Assembly (NCBI GenBank): GCA_951812805.1
Contig: CATOSZ010000003.1
Span: 698,557 to 762,556 of the forward strand
Direction of reading: 5' to 3'
DNA from: an uncultured Alphaproteobacteria bacterium
Lineage (GTDB): Bacteria; Pseudomonadota; Alphaproteobacteria; GCA-2731375
Length of the DNA: 64,000 nucleotides
The notes beneath the pieces were generated by a model. That model saw only the letters and a list, made by a program, of their open reading frames with translations. It did no database searches and was not told where the DNA came from. A program made the translations under genes and the position numbers. This document shows positions 11,564-56,219 of the stretch, one piece after another (position 1 is the stretch's first letter; every line of letters begins with the position of its first letter).

Positions 11564-13115
11564 CTAGCAGCCTGTCGGACTTGAGCCGAGTTTCGAGATG
11601 AGATTCACTGTCACGGTCTGATTCTCTCCTGCGCGGTGATTTTGTGATGAGCAACTTTCGACAGGTTGACCGGGAGACCAGCTATCTTCTGCCGCCTTCG
11701 GTGGACGAATGGCTGCCTGATCGTCATCTGGCGCGCTTCGTGGTCGATGTGCTGGAGCAGCTGGATCTCTCTGCGTTCGTGAAGGCCTATCGTGGTTCGG
11801 GCTCGGCGGCGCATCACCCGAGCGTCCTGCTGGGCCTGCTGATCTACGGCTACGCGACGGGGGTGCATTCCAGCCGGAAGCTGGAGCGGGCGAGCTATGA
11901 TTCGGTGGCCTTCCGCTTCATCGCGGCAAACGACCACCCCGACCACGACACGATCGCCACGTTCCGCCGTCGCTTCCTGCCGCTGATCGAGGGGCTGTTC
12001 GTGCAGGTTCTGCTGCTGGCGCGGCAGGCCGGCATGCTGCAACTGGGCACGGTGGCGCTGGACGGGACGAAGATCCATGCCGACGCGAGCCGGCACAGCG
12101 CCCTGTCGTGGCAGCGTGCGGGCGAGATCGAAGCCCGGCTGCGGGCCGAGGTGGCGGAGTTGATGGCGTTGGCGGAAGCGGCGGACCGGTCCGAGGTTCC
12201 CGACGGCATGAGCGTGCCGGAGGAGCTGGCACGGCGCGAGGACCGGCTGGCGGCGATCGCCGCGGCGAAGGCGGAGATCGAGGCGCGGGCGGCCGAGCGT
12301 CATGCGCGGGAGCAGGCGGAGTACGAAGAGAAGCTGGCAGCCCGCGAGGCGAAGGAAACGCGGACCGGCCGCAAGCCGGGCGGGCGGCCACCGAAGCCGC
12401 CGGAGCCGGGGCCACGGGCGAAGGACCAGGTCAACCTGACGGACCCGGACTCGCGCATCATGCCGGTGGCCGGCGGCGGCTTCGAGCAGTGCTACAACGC
12501 CCAGGCTGCGGTGGCCGCCGGCAGCCTGCTGGTGGTCAGCGCCGACGTGGTGCAGGCGGCGAACGACAAGCAGCAGATCGAACCGACGCTCGAAGCACTC
12601 GCCGGCCTGCCGGACGGGCTTGGCGAGGTCGAGACCCTGTTGGCGGACAGCGGCTACTTCAGCCAGGCCAACGTCGAGGCCTGCGGGGAAGCGGAGATCG
12701 CGCCGCTGATCGCGCTCGGCCGGGAGCACCACCATCTTTCCTGGCGGGACCGCTTCGCCGAGGCGCCGCCAGCGCCCGAGGATCCGACGCCGCTCGAGGC
12801 GATGTGCCATCGCCTGGCCACACCCGAGGGCCGGGCGCTCTACGCGCTTCGCAAGCAGACGCCGGAGCCGGTGTTCGGCATCATCAAATCGGTGATGGGC
12901 TTGCGTCAGTTCAGCCTGCGCGGCCTCGACAAGGCGAAGGGGGAATGGACCTTGGCCACGCTCTCCTGGAACATCAAGCGGATGTTCGTCCTCAGCCACG
13001 CCTGAACGGGCGGGCCAACCCGCGTTCGCAACTTCATGGGGGTAAATCCATGACATCGACGCCCGCCAAGCCAATCTTACCAATCCTTGCATGCCCGAGT
13101 CCGACAGGCTGCTAG
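11564..13115 (+). mobile_element. IS1182-family insertion sequence, copy 1
   Basis: The terminal inverted repeats read CTAGCAGCCTGTCGGACTTG at the left end and CCGAGTCCGACAGGCTGCTAG at the right. The element is 1552 bp counting the CTAG at both ends and carries one transposase gene. The second copy at 48612-50163 has the same length and the same CTAG at both ends. CTAG is therefore either a fixed terminal tetranucleotide or a sequence-specific 4-bp target duplication. Removing the element leaves the palindromic site CACCTAGGTG. Both copies have the same orientation. Confidence 0.92.
11647..13005 (+). CDS. IS1182-family transposase
   Basis: A 452-residue DDE transposase. The N-terminus (RQVDRETSYLLPPSVDEWLP) is typical of the family. 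Catalytic residues lie in VALDGTKIHADAS (Asp), LADSGYFSQAN (Asp) and KQTPEPVFGIIKSV (Glu). A long charged, Ala/Glu-rich coiled segment sits in the middle. The ATG at 11647 is used; a GTG directly precedes it. The translation is identical to that of the copy at 48695-50053, which indicates recent transposition or gene conversion. Confidence 0.95.
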   Translation: MSNFRQVDRETSYLLPPSVDEWLPDRHLARFVVDVLEQLDLSAFVKAYRGSGSAAHHPSVLLGLLIYGYATGVHSSRKLERASYDSVAFRFIAANDHPDHDTIATFRRRFLPLIEGLFVQVLLLARQAGMLQLGTVALDGTKIHADASRHSALSWQRAGEIEARLRAEVAELMALAEAADRSEVPDGMSVPEELARREDRLAAIAAAKAEIEARAAERHAREQAEYEEKLAAREAKETRTGRKPGGRPPKPPEPGPRAKDQVNLTDPDSRIMPVAGGGFEQCYNAQAAVAAGSLLVVSADVVQAANDKQQIEPTLEALAGLPDGLGEVETLLADSGYFSQANVEACGEAEIAPLIALGREHHHLSWRDRFAEAPPAPEDPTPLEAMCHRLATPEGRALYALRKQTPEPVFGIIKSVMGLRQFSLRGLDKAKGEWTLATLSWNIKRMFVLSHA

Positions 13116-13154
13116 GTGAATTGTAGCCAGTACCAGCCGCTCATGCGTTGCCAG

Positions 13155-13691
13155 CTAGGCTATTTTTGATTCGATAAAGTCGAGTGCGTCAGCACCAGCT
13201 GATACCTCTGAAATGTAGAAGTGCATGCCCTTTTGTGGCCAGATGAGAATTCCCTTTGGCGTCCGAACGCACTTCTCGATGCCACCCCACGTCATGTGAG
13301 CGGACGAAATTTTGCTTTTTGTCTCGATGCCATCGTCGTCGAACGACATCTCGATCATCGTGTTTGCGGCCTTACTTCTTCCTTGTCTCCGAAGCCAAAA
13401 GAACTTCTTGATTCGGCTACTGAAAAGCTCGAAAACGCCAATGGCAACAAGGGCAAGTGGCAGAGCGGTTGCCCAATTTGCGTACGCGAGAAGCGCCAAA
13501 CCGCAAACAATGAAAAGACCGCCGATAGCAAACTCGATCAGGCGCCATCGGCTCCCGTACCGACGCGCTTGATCGAAGCCCTCGCTCATATAATCTCTGT
13601 CGTAAACCATTTTCGCGGTGTAATTCACGACTTTATTTTCTGACACTAGTTGAAATCCCTCACGATACTTTTGGCTTGAATCGGGAGACAA
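13155..13691 (-). CDS. YcxB-like membrane protein
   Basis: A 178-residue protein with two adjacent membrane segments (LIEFAIGGLFIVCGLALLAY and ALPLALVAIGVFELF), followed by a soluble C-terminal part containing SSAHMTWGGIEKCVRTPKGI. This layout fits the YcxB-like family, whose function is unknown. Translation appears to start at TTG 13691, because AAAGGAG lies 8 bases upstream. Its codon usage is visibly less GC-rich than that of its neighbours, and it lies directly beside an IS1182 copy, both signs of recent acquisition. Confidence 0.7.
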   Translation of the reverse strand: MSPDSSQKYREGFQLVSENKVVNYTAKMVYDRDYMSEGFDQARRYGSRWRLIEFAIGGLFIVCGLALLAYANWATALPLALVAIGVFELFSSRIKKFFWLRRQGRSKAANTMIEMSFDDDGIETKSKISSAHMTWGGIEKCVRTPKGILIWPQKGMHFYISEVSAGADALDFIESKIA

Positions 13692-46289: not shown

Positions 46290-47374
46290 GCGCGCCGGCC
46301 CCGCCGTTCAGCCGCGACTTTACCGCGGCCCGGGCCCGCTTCCGGGCGGCGGCCGAGGTGGCGGGCGCCGAGCTGGAAGCCTTTCCCCACCCGCTCACCG
46401 GCCCCGACGGCGGACCGCTTGCCTGCGATGTCGCCCGGCTCGGCCCGGCGGATGCCGAACGGGTTCTGCTCACCGTCTCCGCCACGCATGGGGTGGAGGG
46501 CTTCGCCGGCTCCGCCCTGCAAAGCGATTGGTTCGCCGATCCCGGCGCCAGCGGATTGCCCGCGGGCGTCGCCCTGATGGCCCTGCATGCGGTCAACCCG
46601 CATGGCTTCGCTCATGGCCGGCGGGCGAACGAGGACAATGTCGACCTCAACCGCAATTTCATCGATTTCACGGCCGACCTGCCGGAGAACGCAGGCTGGC
46701 GCCGGCTGGCGCCGGTGGTCTGTCCCGACCTCTGGGACGAGGGGGCGGACGCGGCCTACCGGGCGCTCAGCCGGGATTTCATCGAGCGGTACGGCGAGCG
46801 CGACTATGTCGTGGCCGTCTCCGGCGGGCAGTACACCCATCCCGACGCCATCTTCTATGGCGGCAGCGGGCCGGTCTGGTCGCACGATCTGCTGCACACG
46901 CTCACCGCGGGCCGGCTGGCCTCGGTACGGCACCTGGCGGTGATCGATTTCCACACCGGCCTCGGCCCCTGGGGGCATGGCGAGTTGATCTGCCGCCATC
47001 CGCCGGAGAGTGAGGGGCTGCACCGCGCACGCCGCTGGTACGGCGACGGCGTCACCAGCCCCGAATTGGGCGAGAGCGTTTCCGCCGTCGTCACCGGCAA
47101 CCTGCGCATGGCCTTCGCGCTTTGGCGCACGGACATCGAACTCACTTCGGTCGGGCTGGAGTTCGGCACCTATCCGGCCGAGCGGGTGTTCGAGGCCCTG
47201 CGCGCGGAGAACTGGCTGCACCACCACGGTCGCTCCGACAGCCGGGGCGGGCGGGCGATGCTTGCGGAAATGCGCGAGATGTTCGATCCCGACGACGACG
47301 GCTGGCGGGCCCTGGTGTTGGCCCGCGGGCGCGAGGTGCAGCGCCGGGCGCTGGCCGGCCTGGCGCAGACCTGA
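46286..47374 (+). CDS. DUF2817-family M14-like metallopeptidase
   Basis: A 362-residue protein of the carboxypeptidase-like DUF2817 family: LLTVSATHGVEGFAGSALQ with metal His and Glu, ALHAVNPHGFAHGRRANEDNVDLNRNF, AVSGGQYTHPDAIFYGG and LAVIDFHTGLGPWGHGEL. It should hydrolyse a peptide or amide bond in the cytoplasm. It begins at GTG with a 4-base overlap with the preceding amidohydrolase, so both probably act on the same compound. Confidence 0.9.
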   Translation: MSAPAPPFSRDFTAARARFRAAAEVAGAELEAFPHPLTGPDGGPLACDVARLGPADAERVLLTVSATHGVEGFAGSALQSDWFADPGASGLPAGVALMALHAVNPHGFAHGRRANEDNVDLNRNFIDFTADLPENAGWRRLAPVVCPDLWDEGADAAYRALSRDFIERYGERDYVVAVSGGQYTHPDAIFYGGSGPVWSHDLLHTLTAGRLASVRHLAVIDFHTGLGPWGHGELICRHPPESEGLHRARRWYGDGVTSPELGESVSAVVTGNLRMAFALWRTDIELTSVGLEFGTYPAERVFEALRAENWLHHHGRSDSRGGRAMLAEMREMFDPDDDGWRALVLARGREVQRRALAGLAQT

Positions 47375-48490: not shown

Positions 48491-48611
48491 CGGGTGCTTG
48501 GACTTCGAATGTGGTAATATACTACTATCGTCTGCGTTTGCTGCGGCTGTAGTTGCCAAAGCTTGAAGTGCAGGTCGATCACGGAAACTTGATCGGACTC
48601 CAAGAGAGTGC

Positions 48612-50163
48612 CTAGCAGCCTGTCGGACTTGAGCCGAGTTTCGAGATGAGATTCACTGTCACGGTCTGATTCTCTCCTGCGCGGTGATTTTGTGATGAGC
48701 AACTTTCGACAGGTTGACCGGGAGACCAGCTATCTTCTGCCGCCTTCGGTGGACGAATGGCTGCCTGATCGTCATCTGGCGCGCTTCGTGGTCGATGTGC
48801 TGGAGCAGCTGGATCTCTCTGCGTTCGTGAAGGCCTATCGTGGTTCGGGCTCGGCGGCGCATCACCCGAGCGTCCTGCTGGGCCTGCTGATCTACGGCTA
48901 CGCGACGGGGGTGCATTCCAGCCGGAAGCTGGAGCGGGCGAGCTATGATTCGGTGGCCTTCCGCTTCATCGCGGCAAACGACCACCCCGACCACGACACG
49001 ATCGCCACGTTCCGCCGTCGCTTCCTGCCGCTGATCGAGGGGCTGTTCGTGCAGGTTCTGCTGCTGGCGCGGCAGGCCGGCATGCTGCAACTGGGCACGG
49101 TGGCGCTGGACGGGACGAAGATCCATGCCGACGCGAGCCGGCACAGCGCCCTGTCGTGGCAGCGTGCGGGCGAGATCGAAGCCCGGCTGCGGGCCGAGGT
49201 GGCGGAGTTGATGGCGTTGGCGGAAGCGGCGGACCGGTCCGAGGTTCCCGACGGCATGAGCGTGCCGGAGGAGCTGGCACGGCGCGAGGACCGGCTGGCG
49301 GCGATCGCCGCGGCGAAGGCGGAGATCGAGGCGCGGGCGGCCGAGCGTCATGCGCGGGAGCAGGCGGAGTACGAAGAGAAGCTGGCAGCCCGCGAGGCGA
49401 AGGAAACGCGGACCGGCCGCAAGCCGGGCGGGCGGCCACCGAAGCCGCCGGAGCCGGGGCCACGGGCGAAGGACCAGGTCAACCTGACGGACCCGGACTC
49501 GCGCATCATGCCGGTGGCCGGCGGCGGCTTCGAGCAGTGCTACAACGCCCAGGCTGCGGTGGCCGCCGGCAGCCTGCTGGTGGTCAGCGCCGACGTGGTG
49601 CAGGCGGCGAACGACAAGCAGCAGATCGAACCGACGCTCGAAGCACTCGCCGGCCTGCCGGACGGGCTTGGCGAGGTCGAGACCCTGTTGGCGGACAGCG
49701 GCTACTTCAGCCAGGCCAACGTCGAGGCCTGCGGGGAAGCGGAGATCGCGCCGCTGATCGCGCTCGGCCGGGAGCACCACCATCTTTCCTGGCGGGACCG
49801 CTTCGCCGAGGCGCCGCCAGCGCCCGAGGATCCGACGCCGCTCGAGGCGATGTGCCATCGCCTGGCCACACCCGAGGGCCGGGCGCTCTACGCGCTTCGC
49901 AAGCAGACGCCGGAGCCGGTGTTCGGCATCATCAAATCGGTGATGGGCTTGCGTCAGTTCAGCCTGCGCGGCCTCGACAAGGCGAAGGGGGAATGGACCT
50001 TGGCCACGCTCTCCTGGAACATCAAGCGGATGTTCGTCCTCAGCCACGCCTGAACGGGCGGGCCAACCCGCGTTCGCAACTTCATGGGGGTAAATCCATG
50101 ACATCGACGCCCGCCAAGCCAATCTTACCAATCCTTGCATGCCCGAGTCCGACAGGCTGCTAG
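48612..50163 (+). mobile_element. IS1182-family insertion sequence, copy 2
   Basis: Same length, ends and orientation as the copy at 11564-13115, exactly 37048 bases further along. CTAG is present at both ends; the outer flanks (GAGTGC and AAGTAAG) differ from those of copy 1. It marks the boundary between the GC-rich metabolic block and the accessory region that follows. Confidence 0.92.
48695..50053 (+). CDS. IS1182-family transposase
   Basis: Its 452-residue translation is identical to that of copy 1 at 11647-13005, with the same DDE residues (VALDGTKIHADAS, LADSGYFSQAN, KQTPEPVFGIIKSV). It looks intact and could act on either copy. Confidence 0.95.
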   Translation: MSNFRQVDRETSYLLPPSVDEWLPDRHLARFVVDVLEQLDLSAFVKAYRGSGSAAHHPSVLLGLLIYGYATGVHSSRKLERASYDSVAFRFIAANDHPDHDTIATFRRRFLPLIEGLFVQVLLLARQAGMLQLGTVALDGTKIHADASRHSALSWQRAGEIEARLRAEVAELMALAEAADRSEVPDGMSVPEELARREDRLAAIAAAKAEIEARAAERHAREQAEYEEKLAAREAKETRTGRKPGGRPPKPPEPGPRAKDQVNLTDPDSRIMPVAGGGFEQCYNAQAAVAAGSLLVVSADVVQAANDKQQIEPTLEALAGLPDGLGEVETLLADSGYFSQANVEACGEAEIAPLIALGREHHHLSWRDRFAEAPPAPEDPTPLEAMCHRLATPEGRALYALRKQTPEPVFGIIKSVMGLRQFSLRGLDKAKGEWTLATLSWNIKRMFVLSHA

Positions 50164-50827: not shown

Positions 50828-51349
50828 ATGCCTCTTCCGACTGAAAAACATTGGTATGCCGTGGCGACCAAGGCGCGTCGGGAGCTTTGGGCGCGGAGTA
50901 ATCTTTGGGAACGGGAGATCGAGGTATATTTGCCGCTGGTGCGGCGGTGGCGGCGCCATTCCGGCAAGCGTGACTTGGTAAGCTACCCCCTGTTTCCTGG
51001 CTATCTGTTCGTCGAGGCCGACCTTCAAATCACCAGCTCGCGGGCGATCGATATGGCGCAGGGGGTGCGCGGGTTGGTCCGCTTCGGCGAGCGCTTGCCG
51101 ACGGTCCCTGGCGGCGTCATTGAAGGAATTCGTCAGCTCGAGGACGAAAGCGGTCATATCGACCTCGATGCATGGCGCGGTGGCTTTCGCCCGGGTGATC
51201 TGGTGCAGATTGCCAAGGGTGTGATGGCCGATGTGACGGCCATTGTCGAAAGCATCGACGCAAAGATGCGAATTGTCGTGTTGTTGGAGCTCCTCGGCCG
51301 GCAAGTTCGTGCACGGGTGGACCGCGATCAAATCATCCGTGAGGGCTGA
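50828..51349 (+). CDS. NusG/RfaH-type specialised antiterminator
   Basis: A 173-residue NusG paralogue. The NGN domain is visible as HWYAVATKARRELWARSNLWERE, VYLPLVRRWRRHSGK and YPLFPGYLFVEADL; a KOW segment follows (FRPGDLVQIAKGVMADVTAIVESI). Such paralogues (RfaH, LoaP, UpxY) bind paused RNA polymerase and let it read through long polysaccharide operons. It is short relative to housekeeping NusG, and it is not beside secE or ribosomal genes. The polysaccharide genes begin about 8.4 kb downstream, and an ops-like 12-mer lies at 62784. Confidence 0.85.
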   Translation: MPLPTEKHWYAVATKARRELWARSNLWEREIEVYLPLVRRWRRHSGKRDLVSYPLFPGYLFVEADLQITSSRAIDMAQGVRGLVRFGERLPTVPGGVIEGIRQLEDESGHIDLDAWRGGFRPGDLVQIAKGVMADVTAIVESIDAKMRIVVLLELLGRQVRARVDRDQIIREG

Positions 51350-51375: not shown

Positions 51376-51624
51376 TCATGCGGCTGGGCTTTCGCGGCGA
51401 TGGCATTGCCAAAGTTCGTTTGCGATGCTTTCGGGATCAAGGTCTCTTCCCACCCACAAGCTGCGCTCGTCGCCGGCCTCGTGGAGTTCGCGATGGTGCA
51501 GGGCGCAGAGGGGGACGGTCCATTGATCTCCAGCCTTGCGGCCGATGGCCTTGGGTTGCGCGATGGTCAGATGGTGAACCTGCACCGGCGTGCGGTCACA
51601 GATGAGGCAGGGTTGCGTGGCCAC
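51376..51624 (-). CDS. C-terminal HNH-like (DUF968) part of a split Rad52-HNH gene
   Basis: An 82-codon frame from GTG 51624, with a zinc-finger-like nuclease motif: CLICDRTPVQVHHLTIAQP, then VPLCALHHRELHEAGDE. It is in the same frame as the Rad52-type gene upstream, separated only by a TAA at 51688-51690 and 21 sense codons that read VAPDPRPEQPRRLRDKGHLA and onward. Related alphaproteobacterial proteins, as I recall, carry both parts in one chain, so this is probably a detached domain and may not be made on its own. Confidence 0.6.
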   Translation of the reverse strand: MATQPCLICDRTPVQVHHLTIAQPKAIGRKAGDQWTVPLCALHHRELHEAGDERSLWVGRDLDPESIANELWQCHRRESPAA

Positions 51625-51687
51625 ATAGGCGAGGTGTCCCTTATCCCGGAGGCGGCGGGGTTGCTCTGGTCTCGGGTCGGGGGCGAC

Positions 51688-52464
51688 TTATCCGTCGTCT
51701 GGCCTACAGGTTGCCGGCGGAGGCGGTGCGTCCGTCGGGATCGCAGCACGGTGTTGCGCGAGCCGATTGCGGTGTTCGGCGGCGAGTTGGAGCAGGCGGT
51801 CGACGTAATGACGGCTCTGTGAATCGGTTAGGCTGGGAGCGAGCAGCCGGAGGCGAGTGAGGACATGTTGGTTTTGGGCGAGGAGTTGATCGATCTCGCC
51901 GGCATCGCCAACCGCCTCGATCGCTTCGCGAAACCGAGAGCAGAAGCGTGCGGGGTCTTCGAAACGCCCCATCCCGTCGGCGGAGATGAACGGCCAGAGC
52001 AGAGGGCGCGGCTCTTCGCCCGCGAGGTGGCCGGCGAGCCCGCGCCGTGCAGGATCATAGAGGGCGAGGCCGTATGGGTTGCCGAAGGTGATGAGGGCCC
52101 GTTTGGTCGCATCAGTTTCCGCGGCCTTCAGAGCCATGTCATGCGCTTCGGCTGGATCGGTGGCGTCACCGGTGCCCGTACCATGGCCCTCACGGCAGAT
52201 CTGTCGGGCGCCGGCATGGACGGTAATTCGAACTTTCACGCTATAGAGACAGTGGCTGCGGCCATGCTGCGATCGTTGCAACAGGCAGCTCATCTCCAAG
52301 GTTTCGCGGTCCCAGCCGTCGAAGCCGAAGATCCGATTCGCTTCCGAGATGGCGTGCCAGCCCTCGACATAGGGCAGCGTTGCTGCGCCCTGACGACGGA
52401 GGCGAACGTGTTTCAGTTTGAGCTTCGCGGAGAGGCCCGCGATTTGCTCCGGCGTGAAGGTCAT
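51688..52464 (-). CDS. Rad52/22-family DNA-annealing protein, ended by an in-frame TAA
   Basis: A 258-residue protein of the Rad52/22 single-strand annealing family: LKLKHVRLRRQG, YVEGWHAISEANRIFGFDGWDRET, CREGHGTGTGDA and HDMALKAAETDATKRALITFGNPYGLALYD. It anneals complementary strands in recombination and repair, often phage-borne. The ATG at 52464 overlaps the Gp157 stop as TGATG. The stop codon TAA at 51688-51690 appears to be a point change, because the frame continues into the HNH-like part. The annealing domain itself is complete, so partial function is possible. Confidence 0.83.
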   Translation of the reverse strand: MTFTPEQIAGLSAKLKLKHVRLRRQGAATLPYVEGWHAISEANRIFGFDGWDRETLEMSCLLQRSQHGRSHCLYSVKVRITVHAGARQICREGHGTGTGDATDPAEAHDMALKAAETDATKRALITFGNPYGLALYDPARRGLAGHLAGEEPRPLLWPFISADGMGRFEDPARFCSRFREAIEAVGDAGEIDQLLAQNQHVLTRLRLLAPSLTDSQSRHYVDRLLQLAAEHRNRLAQHRAAIPTDAPPPPATCRPDDG

Positions 52465-52697
52465 CACTTGGTCCTCACGGTCAGGCTGCGGCCCGGTTCC
52501 GAAAGGGATGCTCCCGGGATGGAAGTTCCGGACTTGAGGGCGTCAAGCAATGCGCGGCGGTCGAGTTTGGGTGGCTGAGGTACAAAGTAGTGATCGGGGA
52601 TTTGCGCTTCATCATCGACAAGCAGCGAAGCCGGCGTGGCTCGAAGCGAGAGGGTGAAGTCGGCTTCGCGCAGACGGGGGATCTCAGCGCGTTCCAT
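52464..52697 (-). pseudogene. C-terminal part of the split Gp157-type gene
   Basis: A 77-codon frame (EIPRLREADFTLSLRATPAS; DHYFVPQPPKLDRRALLDAL) matching the C-terminal half of siphovirus Gp157-family proteins. It lies in the same frame as the N-terminal half at 52758-52967; the only break is a TAA at 52758-52760, followed by 20 sense codons reading ARLQRFGHAADTKRQILTIV. Its own ATG at 52697 may or may not be used. It ends at the Rad52 start. Confidence 0.65.
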
Positions 52698-52757
52698 GAC
52701 GATTGTCAGGATCTGCCGTTTCGTATCAGCCGCGTGGCCGAAGCGCTGGAGACGGGC

Positions 52758-52967
52758 TTACATGTCGTCGATGCGGGCGCGAAGGGCCTGAACCATAGAC
52801 TTGTCGTCGAGGTACGAGCGTGTGACCTGGACGATCATTTCGTTGAGATCGGTCAAGCCTTCGAGCGTATCTGCTAGGATCTCCTCGTCGGCGTCTGGGA
52901 AGCGCTCGGCGAGTTGCTGGCGGAAGAACTCGTGATGCGCCAGTTCGCGGAGAATCGGGGCGCTCAT
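52758..52967 (-). CDS. N-terminal part of a siphovirus Gp157-family protein, ended by an in-frame TAA
   Basis: A 69-residue frame starting MSAPILRELAHHEFFRQQLA and containing EEILADTLEGLTDLNEMIVQ, the typical helical N-terminus of Gp157 (a phage protein linked with host resistance or recombination cassettes). The ATG at 52967 follows GGGGAGA. The TAA at 52758-52760 replaces what is probably a Lys codon (AAG or AAA); the remaining half follows in frame to 52464. The open frame also extends upstream without a stop to the ISAs1 element. Confidence 0.7.
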   Translation of the reverse strand: MSAPILRELAHHEFFRQQLAERFPDADEEILADTLEGLTDLNEMIVQVTRSYLDDKSMVQALRARIDDM

Positions 52968-53110
52968 GAGGCGTCTCCCCGCAGATCCAACGAATCTAGC
53001 GTGGTCGTCCCCGCGGATGAGGTCTCTACGTCTTGTTTCTCCATCGCCTTCTGTCGCGGGATTTGCGTCGGGCGCCGCCCGATCGGCGCGCCAGACTTGG
53101 TGTTCTTTCC

Positions 53111-54319
53111 CAGGGCAATCGCATTTCAGAATTTGCCGAGGAGTGACAGGAGATAGTCGTTGTTCCAAGCGGCGATTTTGAACTTGGCGCGCAGCGAGTC
53201 TTTTCGTGGATCCTTTCGCATGACATTGAGCGCCATGTGGCGCAGGACGGCGAGATTGTGCGGTCCATTGTCCTTGCGGGTTCTGTCTTGGTCTTCGTTC
53301 ATTTGGACATCGAGGCACCAGTGCAGGCGGTTTTCGACCCCCCAGTGCGCCCGGGCAACGGGATTGAAGCGCTCGGCGTCGAGCGGCTGGCTGAGCAGGT
53401 AGTAGGCGGTTTCGCTCGACGTCTTCTCCGCGCACTCGCGGGTCCGGGTGACTTTGGCGACCGCCTTCAGGCCCGGCCAATGATGGCGCTCTTGCAGCCA
53501 CTCGACGTGGCTGGAGACGAGAGCGGCACGGGTCTCGATGCGGCCATGATCGCCATCGACCGTGGTGTCGGTGGTGGTCGCTTCGGCTTTCGGATCGTCG
53601 AGGAAGGTTCTCACGTCGTCATGCAGCGTGCCTTGATTGCCCTTCAACGCCAGGGCGTAGTCACCCCCCTGCTCGATAATCTGGCTGGCGATGGCGCGCT
53701 GGCAATTGAGGGCGTCCACGGTCACGATCGTCCCCTCGAGGCTCAATAGTTTCAACAGCTTCGGCACGGCGGTGATCTCGTTGGACTTGGCGTCGGTGGC
53801 GACTTGCCCCAACACCAGCCGCTGATCACAGCCCCAGGCCGAGACCATATGCAGCGCCGACGTGCCGCTCGCCTTGTCGTAGGATCGCCGCACCACCTTG
53901 CCGTCGATCGCAATGACCCCTTGGCAGGTCTCGGAAAAGCGCGCCATGAAGCGCTGGAAGCAGGCGCCGAACGCCTCCGGATCCAGCAACCGGAACACCC
54001 GGCTGAAGGTGTCGTGGCTCGGCACGCCATGTTCGAGTACGAGAAATTCCCGCAGGAACGCCTCCTTTTCACGCGCGAAGATCGCCATGTCGACCGCCGT
54101 CTGACCGCCCGAGAGGACCGTGCACAGGGCGATCGTCAAGATCTCCAGCAGATCGTGACGCCCGGCATTGCCAGTCCGCGGATCCTCGAGACCCTCAAAG
54201 CACTCCAGAAAGCCTTCCATCGCAACCTCCACCCGTGAAAAGACCGGGTAGAATCGATTCGCGCCAATACCTCAAGATCAAACACGCACGTCAAGGCAAT
54301 TCCAAATGCGATTCCCCTG
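53111..54319 (-). mobile_element. ISAs1-family insertion sequence
   Basis: Inverted ends CAGGGCAATCGCATTT (53111-53126) and, inward from 54319, CAGGGGAATCGCATTT differ by one base. Length 1209 bp with a single transposase gene. The flanks TGTTCTTTCC (53101-53110) and TGTTCTTCCC (54320-54329) form a 10-bp target duplication with one mismatch, so the insertion is not brand new. It splits the gene that begins at 54558. Confidence 0.92.
53126..54220 (-). CDS. ISAs1-family transposase
   Basis: A 364-residue DDE transposase. Family motifs: ECFEGLEDPRTGNAGRHDLLEI, VLEHGVPSHDTFSRVFRLLDP, VIAIDGKVVRRSYDK (first Asp), GTIVTVDALNCQR (second Asp), and ARAHWGVENRLHWCLDVQMNED (Glu). The ATG at 54220 follows GGAGG; the frame opens 4 codons earlier with a GTG. 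The C-terminal codons reach the inverted repeat itself, which is normal in this family. It appears intact. Confidence 0.95.
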   Translation of the reverse strand: MEGFLECFEGLEDPRTGNAGRHDLLEILTIALCTVLSGGQTAVDMAIFAREKEAFLREFLVLEHGVPSHDTFSRVFRLLDPEAFGACFQRFMARFSETCQGVIAIDGKVVRRSYDKASGTSALHMVSAWGCDQRLVLGQVATDAKSNEITAVPKLLKLLSLEGTIVTVDALNCQRAIASQIIEQGGDYALALKGNQGTLHDDVRTFLDDPKAEATTTDTTVDGDHGRIETRAALVSSHVEWLQERHHWPGLKAVAKVTRTRECAEKTSSETAYYLLSQPLDAERFNPVARAHWGVENRLHWCLDVQMNEDQDRTRKDNGPHNLAVLRHMALNVMRKDPRKDSLRAKFKIAAWNNDYLLSLLGKF

Positions 54320-54558
54320 TGTTCTTCCCAGAGCCGGATTGCCTCGCGGCGGACGGTCAGGTGGCGGTCGAGGTAATAGTCGAGGAGGCGCTCGAGGTTC
54401 GCAGCGAGGGCGTCGAGGAGCTCACGCAGTCCCGGCCGGAGGCTGGCGTGGCCGTTCACCGTGGCGGTGAGCGAAACACCGGCATCGACGATTTCATCGA
54501 GGGCCAGGAGCTCCCGCCGACGTTCTTGGTAGCTGGTTTGGTCATTCAGCACGATCAT
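54320..54558 (-). pseudogene. 5' part of an unknown cassette gene split by ISAs1
   Basis: About 80 native codons from ATG 54558 (GGGAGGA upstream): RRELLALDEIVDAGVSLTAT, LRELLDALAANLERLLDYYL, VRREAIRLWEEH. Beyond that the frame runs on into IS DNA. Joining the flanks after removal of the IS and one target copy gives RLWEEHQVWRADRAAPD in frame, showing that the rest of the gene lies at 52968-53100. I recognise no family; position next to Gp157 and Rad52 suggests a phage-type recombination cassette. Confidence 0.65.
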
Positions 54559-54728: not shown

Positions 54729-55382
54729 TCAGATCTCAGGCACTGCTGGCGCGGGATCGACCTCAATCGTCGCCCGGGCTCCGGCGTGCGGCGTGTTGCT
54801 CGCGGAGTTGGTTGAGCAGGCGGAGGGTCGACCGTTCGAGGGCGGCTTCGTAACGGCTGAGTTTGCCGAAGGCACCGCGCCGGCGCCATCTTCCGTAAAG
54901 GCTTGGCCAAGCATAACGTCCGGTGCGGAGCGCTGTTCTTGCGTCTCGACGAGATCGGCTTTGGCGGCGGCAAAGGCTTCGTCGTCGAGGATTCTTGTCT
55001 CGTGGACGTAATAATACTTGGAGGGTAGTCGTTCTTCGAGATCATTCATTGTCTGGGTCGCGTTGGTCGCTTGGATGGACAACTGCTGGTGGGCGAAGAT
55101 CGCCGCCTCGACATGGCCAGCGCGTCGCAGGCGCCACATGTTGAAGGCGATGCGAAAGACCAACTCCTCCTCGAAAGCACCCTCGGGCGCCAAAGAAGCA
55201 ACGATATCGGTGTAAAAGGCGTCGAAGTCGGCCACAGACTCGGTTCTGAGCAACAAACGATGCGCCGTAAGGCCATGTTTGAGGGCGTTTCGGCGTGACT
55301 TGGATTTTCCGTCTGGTGTCCGAGGGCCGGTGCTGCGTTGGGCGTTGCTTCGATTGGCGGCGATTTGAGCGTTGGAGGCCAT
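54729..55382 (-). pseudogene. Frameshifted gene of a common alphaproteobacterial family of unknown function
   Basis: It begins ANRSNAQRSTGPRTPDGKSK and SRRNALKHGLTAHRLLLRTE, the signature of an unnamed family widely seen beside mobile DNA, followed by a helical region (FRIAFNMWRLRRAGHVEAAI). After FTEDGAGA the present frame becomes Ser/Ala/Pro-rich. Another frame of the same strand continues with GAFGKLSRYEAALERSTLRL and LNQLREQHAARRSPGDD to a TGA at 54763-54765, which resembles the expected C-terminus. A one-base deletion near 54870-54890 explains this. Confidence 0.65.
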
Positions 55383-55496: not shown

Positions 55497-56219
55497 TCAA
55501 CGGAGGGCATGGCCGCGCCAGACGACACGCCCGAAAACTTGCAGCGTTGTTGCGGGGACATCGCGGATTGGCGGGTAATGGGGATCTTCGCTGAGAATGC
55601 TGACCGTCTCGCGGCCCAAGTCGAGCTGCAGGCGGCGGATCGTCAGGTTGTTTCGGTGAGTGAGGACATAGAGACCATCATCCGTCACCTGAGTTTGTCC
55701 GTGGTCGACGAGGATCAAGTCGCCACGCATAAATGTTGGGGCCAATGCGTGGTCGGTTATCCGAAAGCAGATCGGGTCTTCGGCGTCGAGATCGCGCGCA
55801 AGACTTGGCGGCAAGATGAAGTGTTCTGATGCCTCGGTGTCGTGGTCGATGACCGCGGTCGCGGCGCCGAATTCCATGATGGGAATGTGGTACTGGGCCC
55901 CGACGTCGGTCATTGGGCTGGCGAGCGGGAGATCCGCATCACCATGGTAACGCGGCGGCGGCTCGGACATTGCTGTTGAAGCCGTCAGAGGCGCGAGCTT
56001 CGGTTCGTCGACGCGCGATTGTGTCAACGCTTCGATGGAGATGCCCAGCACCTCGGCAATGCGGTATAGCGTCTGATAGCGCGGGCGGGTCGAGCGGCCT
56101 GAGAGGATATCACCCACAGCGGTTGGGCTGAGTCCGGCGGCGAGGGAAAGAGATCGCGGGCTATGGCCGGCGGCAGCGATCCGTTTCTTGAGGCCATTGC
56201 GCCAGTTGTCGTCAGCCAT
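55497..56219 (-). CDS. Phage-type repressor: XRE helix-turn-helix plus degenerate S24 domain
   Basis: A 240-residue regulator. N-terminal DNA-binding helix-turn-helix: SPRSLSLAAGLSPTAVGDIL with SGRSTRPRYQTLYRIAEVLG. The C-terminal half has the LexA/CI fold (ICFRITDHALAPTFMRGDLI; DDGLYVLTHRNNLTIRRLQL). Active members have Ser in the DSM motif and a Lys in the later strand; here these positions read DHAL and TIRR, so self-cleavage is unlikely. The ATG at 56219 is chosen because upstream sequence is transposase remnant. It probably controls the adjacent minus-strand cassette and is relieved by something other than RecA. Confidence 0.83.
   Translation of the reverse strand: MADDNWRNGLKKRIAAAGHSPRSLSLAAGLSPTAVGDILSGRSTRPRYQTLYRIAEVLGISIEALTQSRVDEPKLAPLTASTAMSEPPPRYHGDADLPLASPMTDVGAQYHIPIMEFGAATAVIDHDTEASEHFILPPSLARDLDAEDPICFRITDHALAPTFMRGDLILVDHGQTQVTDDGLYVLTHRNNLTIRRLQLDLGRETVSILSEDPHYPPIRDVPATTLQVFGRVVWRGHALR

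Follow-up and report, generated by a model that had tools for sequence, protein, structure and literature searches.

The Gp157-type and Rad52-type recombination genes of the window, the whole 64,000-nucleotide stretch of DNA analysed here, are each interrupted by a single in-frame TAA, and the gene preceding them is split by an insertion sequence (IS). This pattern is very probably the recent decay, by ordinary mutation, of a redundant phage-type recombination cassette, not a special reading of stop codons. The cassette thereby presents a clean, young case of a duplicated phage-type recombination module that is starting to decay amid a recent IS expansion.

Results

Two recombination genes carry one nonsense codon each

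The two TAAs described by the first-pass annotation are present where it placed them, on the minus strand (Table 1). Its claim that each gene contains one in-frame stop and no frameshift is likewise borne out: the TAA at codon 70 is the sole internal stop of Gp157, with 97 codons downstream of it, and the Rad52-DUF968/HNH gene has exactly one internal stop before its final TGA. The terminal TGA of Gp157 overlaps the start of the Rad52-DUF968/HNH gene.

Table 1. Features of the recombination cassette and its surroundings (positions in the window)
Feature	Position	Strand	Remarks
Second DDE element	48610-50163		
RfaH/NusG-like antiterminator	50828-51349	plus	convergent with the cassette; 66% identical to the paralog at L074
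Rad52 fused to DUF968/HNH	51376-52467	minus	one TAA in the inter-domain linker; overlaps the Gp157 stop codon
In-frame TAA, Rad52 codon 260	51688-51690	minus	between the Rad52 domain (residues 11-140) and the HNH domain (271-330)
Gp157 gene (Sipho_Gp157, PF05565; PHROG 253)	52464-52967	minus	one internal TAA
In-frame TAA, Gp157 codon 70	52758-52760	minus	R, K or Q aligned in 16/16 cellular homologues
ISAs1-type IS, 1209 bp	53111-54319	minus	16-nt terminal inverted repeats; 10-bp target duplication (one mismatch); transposase 53126-54232
gene1, 5' part (small unnamed gene split by the ISAs1-type IS)	54320-54558	minus	43% identical to the paralog preceding C6 Gp157
HTH + S24-type (CI-like) repressor, intact	55497-56219	minus	38% identical to its counterpart at the head of the C6 cassette

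Translated through its TAA, Gp157 matches PF05565 over residues 18-165 (E 5.2e-23, 82.3 bits against a curated Pfam cut-off of 28.6); PHROGs labels the family "Mu Gam-like end protection". The nonsense change leaves 69 of its 167 residues. For the fusion gene, the open reading frame (ORF) before the TAA scores 111 bits against Rad52_Rad22 (PF04098; curated Pfam cut-off 20.3), and the Rad52 domain is complete in the truncated product. The stop falls in the variable linker that joins the Rad52 and HNH domains, leaving HNH downstream of the TAA and outside the Rad52 ORF. From the 103 post-TAA residues alone, Pfam recognises DUF968 (E 2.4e-11, 44.4 bits), confirming the HNH-like domain proposed earlier, and the Cys and His residues of the HNH motif are retained (C287, C290, H298, H299, C321, H324 and H325). 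Because of these matches, across the TAA in Gp157 and after it in the fusion gene, the roughly 100 codons that follow each stop are homologous protein and not a chance frame. The initial description of sensible protein after the stops thus stands, but its 20-21 codons understate the tails, which are 97 codons in Gp157 and 103 in Rad52.

Homologues are open at both positions

A search across bacterial and archaeal genomes returned relatives that are mostly alphaproteobacterial, many of them from Rhodospirillales, Beijerinckiaceae and Bradyrhizobiaceae bins, in which Gp157 directly precedes Rad52-HNH. Gp157 is open across the TAA site in 16/16 of these cellular relatives and in 40/40 relatives from viral contigs. 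These 56 open genes rule out a Gp157 that naturally ends at the TAA; the window copy alone lacks the uninterrupted ORF of about 165 aa, and we infer that its Gp157 is functionally lost. Rad52-HNH is a single ORF in 15 of the 16 cellular relatives, the exception (L009) being broken at a different place, and the HNH motif lies within the Rad52 ORF in every one of the 12 cellular relatives examined for it. The first-pass annotation had named homologues that normally end at the TAA positions as evidence against its reading; in both genes the cellular relatives instead read on. None of the 13 viral Rad52 relatives has the HNH domain, and they span 209-277 aa, counted from the start of the match. 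From these sequences, HNH-fused Rad52 seems to characterise the cellular set and HNH-less Rad52 the phages. A Rad52 that naturally ends at the TAA was rejected as well, as the HNH-less form is found in phages and is absent among the cellular relatives. A search that covered one genome in the genus and 15 genomes in the family and order yielded no close ortholog with these stops. A DNA search of a plasmid collection gave no match.

A paralogous cassette in the genome is intact

Contig C6 of the genome (7.42 Mb, 19 contigs, 98.5% complete) bears another such cassette, whose genes are all intact and follow the order of the window copy: S24 repressor, gene1, Gp157 and Rad52-HNH. Its Gp157 is 73% identical to that of the window and has Q at the TAA site; its Rad52-HNH, 58% identical to the window copy, is a single 360-aa ORF.

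Polysaccharide genes and an RfaH/NusG-like antiterminator lie near both cassettes. Near the second one, the antiterminator paralog lies at 13065-13571 of locus L074, with a UDP-glucose dehydrogenase gene between the two. The shared surroundings suggest that a larger block, extending beyond the recombination genes, may have arisen by duplication or been taken up on two occasions. In the relatives tested, the 3 kb on either side of the cassette contained no RfaH-like or S24 gene. A general link between such cassettes and polysaccharide genes was considered and dropped: this neighbourhood, present at both copies here, does not recur within 3 kb of the cassette in those relatives.

Between gene1 and the repressor of the window, an unnamed protein gene (54729-55382, minus strand) starts MASNAQIAANRSNAQRSTGPRTPDGKSKSRRNALKHGLTA. 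Relatives of its N-terminal part lie a few kb from the cassette in L005, L010, L012, L016 and L020.

An insertion sequence splits the gene upstream

The gene row bears a third lesion, which the first-pass annotation overlooked: gene1, which adjoins Gp157 upstream, contains an IS with a DDE transposase bearing a DDE_Tnp_1-associated domain, inverted repeats and a target duplication. We take it to belong to the ISAs1 family. Its transposase has 63 equal-scoring copies in the genome. Among 20 copies of the element compared over 1209 bp, 19 are identical, including the window's own, and one has two base differences; this near-complete identity indicates that the IS spread recently. A second DDE transposase is present in at least 82 copies.

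When the flanks of the IS are joined (52968-53110 and 54320-54558, minus strand), gene1 runs in the frame of Gp157. In the C6 paralog, gene1 ends at an ATGA overlap, outside the Gp157 frame. Judging from the sequence, gene1 may have suffered another small indel, or the target duplication may be imprecise; other copies of the element likewise have target duplications one base out.

The lesions appear young

Downstream of the stops, 24 columns of Rad52-HNH and 11 of Gp157 are invariant among the other homologues; the window copy departs from them at one and at none, respectively. Counted either before or after the TAAs, departures at invariant columns leave the window copies no worse than intact relatives. 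Post-stop erosion, which would mark old decay, was thus not seen, and the uneroded sequence argues that the stops are young. This lack of erosion, and the absence of frameshifts in both genes, also count to some degree against decay. In a rough neutral model, about 20-30 substitutions best fit two stops with little other damage, the joint probability then being ~8% at best, a figure to be read with the case having been selected for its oddity from a long window. Two nonsense changes with so little other damage are therefore moderately unlikely under neutral drift, and this rarity suggests that the loss either happened very recently or was selected.

Taken together, the open homologues, the intact C6 paralog and the IS-split upstream gene support the earlier suggestion that the cassette is decaying and has acquired two ochre mutations. 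The cassette, comprising a CI/S24 repressor, a small unknown gene, Gp157 and the Rad52-HNH fusion, would be a redundant copy, with selection on it probably relaxed by the intact paralog. One nonsense substitution shortens Gp157 and a second detaches the HNH nuclease domain from Rad52; the recently amplified ISAs1-type element breaks the gene upstream of Gp157. Since Gp157 and Rad52 overlap, the premature stop in Gp157 probably reduces Rad52 translation as well.

Alternative explanations

The Rad52 stop might have been tolerated or favoured, with a 259-aa annealing protein working without HNH and only Gp157, and perhaps the HNH function, being lost. We consider this improbable as an account in its own right; it overlaps with decay and is not a replacement for it. 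The HNH-less viral relatives provide a precedent, and the Rad52 domain is whole in the truncated product, which matches the naturally HNH-less Rad52 proteins of phages in length and might, judging by its sequence, retain DNA annealing. The retention of HNH by every cellular relative checked speaks against such trimming, as do the truncation of Gp157 just upstream and the IS in the gene before it.

Both TAA bases are taken from the assembly consensus, and one or both could be consensus errors. This is unlikely, and more so than functional trimming of Rad52 as a separate account: errors would have had to create the same stop twice, by independent substitutions, in reading frames without other flaws and beside a real IS.

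Full-length proteins could also be made from both genes by programmed readthrough, a suppressor tRNA or reassignment of TAA, as the first-pass annotation had proposed; we found no support for these routes and judge them very improbable. The frame and the conserved residues are maintained downstream of both TAAs, as recoding would have it. TAA is also the rarest stop in the automated gene calls of the region (8/64). Both TAAs are followed by G and not by U, which lowers readthrough when it follows a stop, according to PMC5289835. Against recoding, neither site holds a stop in the homologues, so that no in-frame TAA is conserved. No tRNA with a TTA anticodon occurs among the 44 tRNAs detected by a genome-wide tRNA family search with ARAGORN run on the matches, a catalogue that is imperfect in that some expected tRNAs are missing; a genome search with an anticodon-loop pattern for the TTA anticodon also gave no match. 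The repressor gene of the intact C6 cassette ends in TAA, and the cassette lineage therefore appears not to read TAA as sense. RNA structure downstream of the TAAs (z -1.7 and +0.9) is neither strong nor common to both. Finally, across 286 matches to sampled families (ABC ATPases, LysR regulators, integrases and transposases), the only in-frame stop is a TAA in an ABC gene, and it lies inside inserted IS sequence. The genetic code is thus unchallenged here; readthrough, if true, would be a rare bacterial case of TAA recoding.

Two observations from these searches concern other loci. The ABC transporter ATPase gene (L148, G000:C2:108800-112000) is interrupted by one copy of the second IS, to which its TAA belongs, and it was rejected as a parallel case of recoding. 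ARAGORN also called a 96-nt tRNA-Pro(cgg) at 47114-47209 of the window, within likely coding sequence; this is probably a false call, the normal tRNA-Pro(cgg) being on contig C8.

Least probable of all is that leaky readthrough of the TAAs keeps Gp157 and Rad52-HNH at a low full-length level, the stops acting as a paired dimmer on the cassette.

Comparison with known systems

The cassette shares its families (PF05565/PHROG 253 and PF04098) with phage recombination modules built on Rad52 and Gp157/Gam-like proteins. Rad52 relatives occur in phage records, and a CI-like repressor lies near the window cassette; the order of Gp157 followed by Rad52 is common to the window and its cellular relatives. 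Unlike phage modules, the window cassette has a Rad52 gene with a C-terminal HNH fusion, two nonsense mutations and an IS nearby, and its setting is a bacterial chromosome, next to polysaccharide genes and without recognised phage structural genes in the vicinity. Rad52 with DUF968/HNH is a fusion type already described (PMC4118853), from which the window fusion differs by the stop in its linker. Among known systems, the nonsense pseudogenes of IS-rich bacterial genomes offer a parallel without essential difference: the window cassette shares with them stops that arise by single substitutions, an intact paralog and the recent spread of IS elements.
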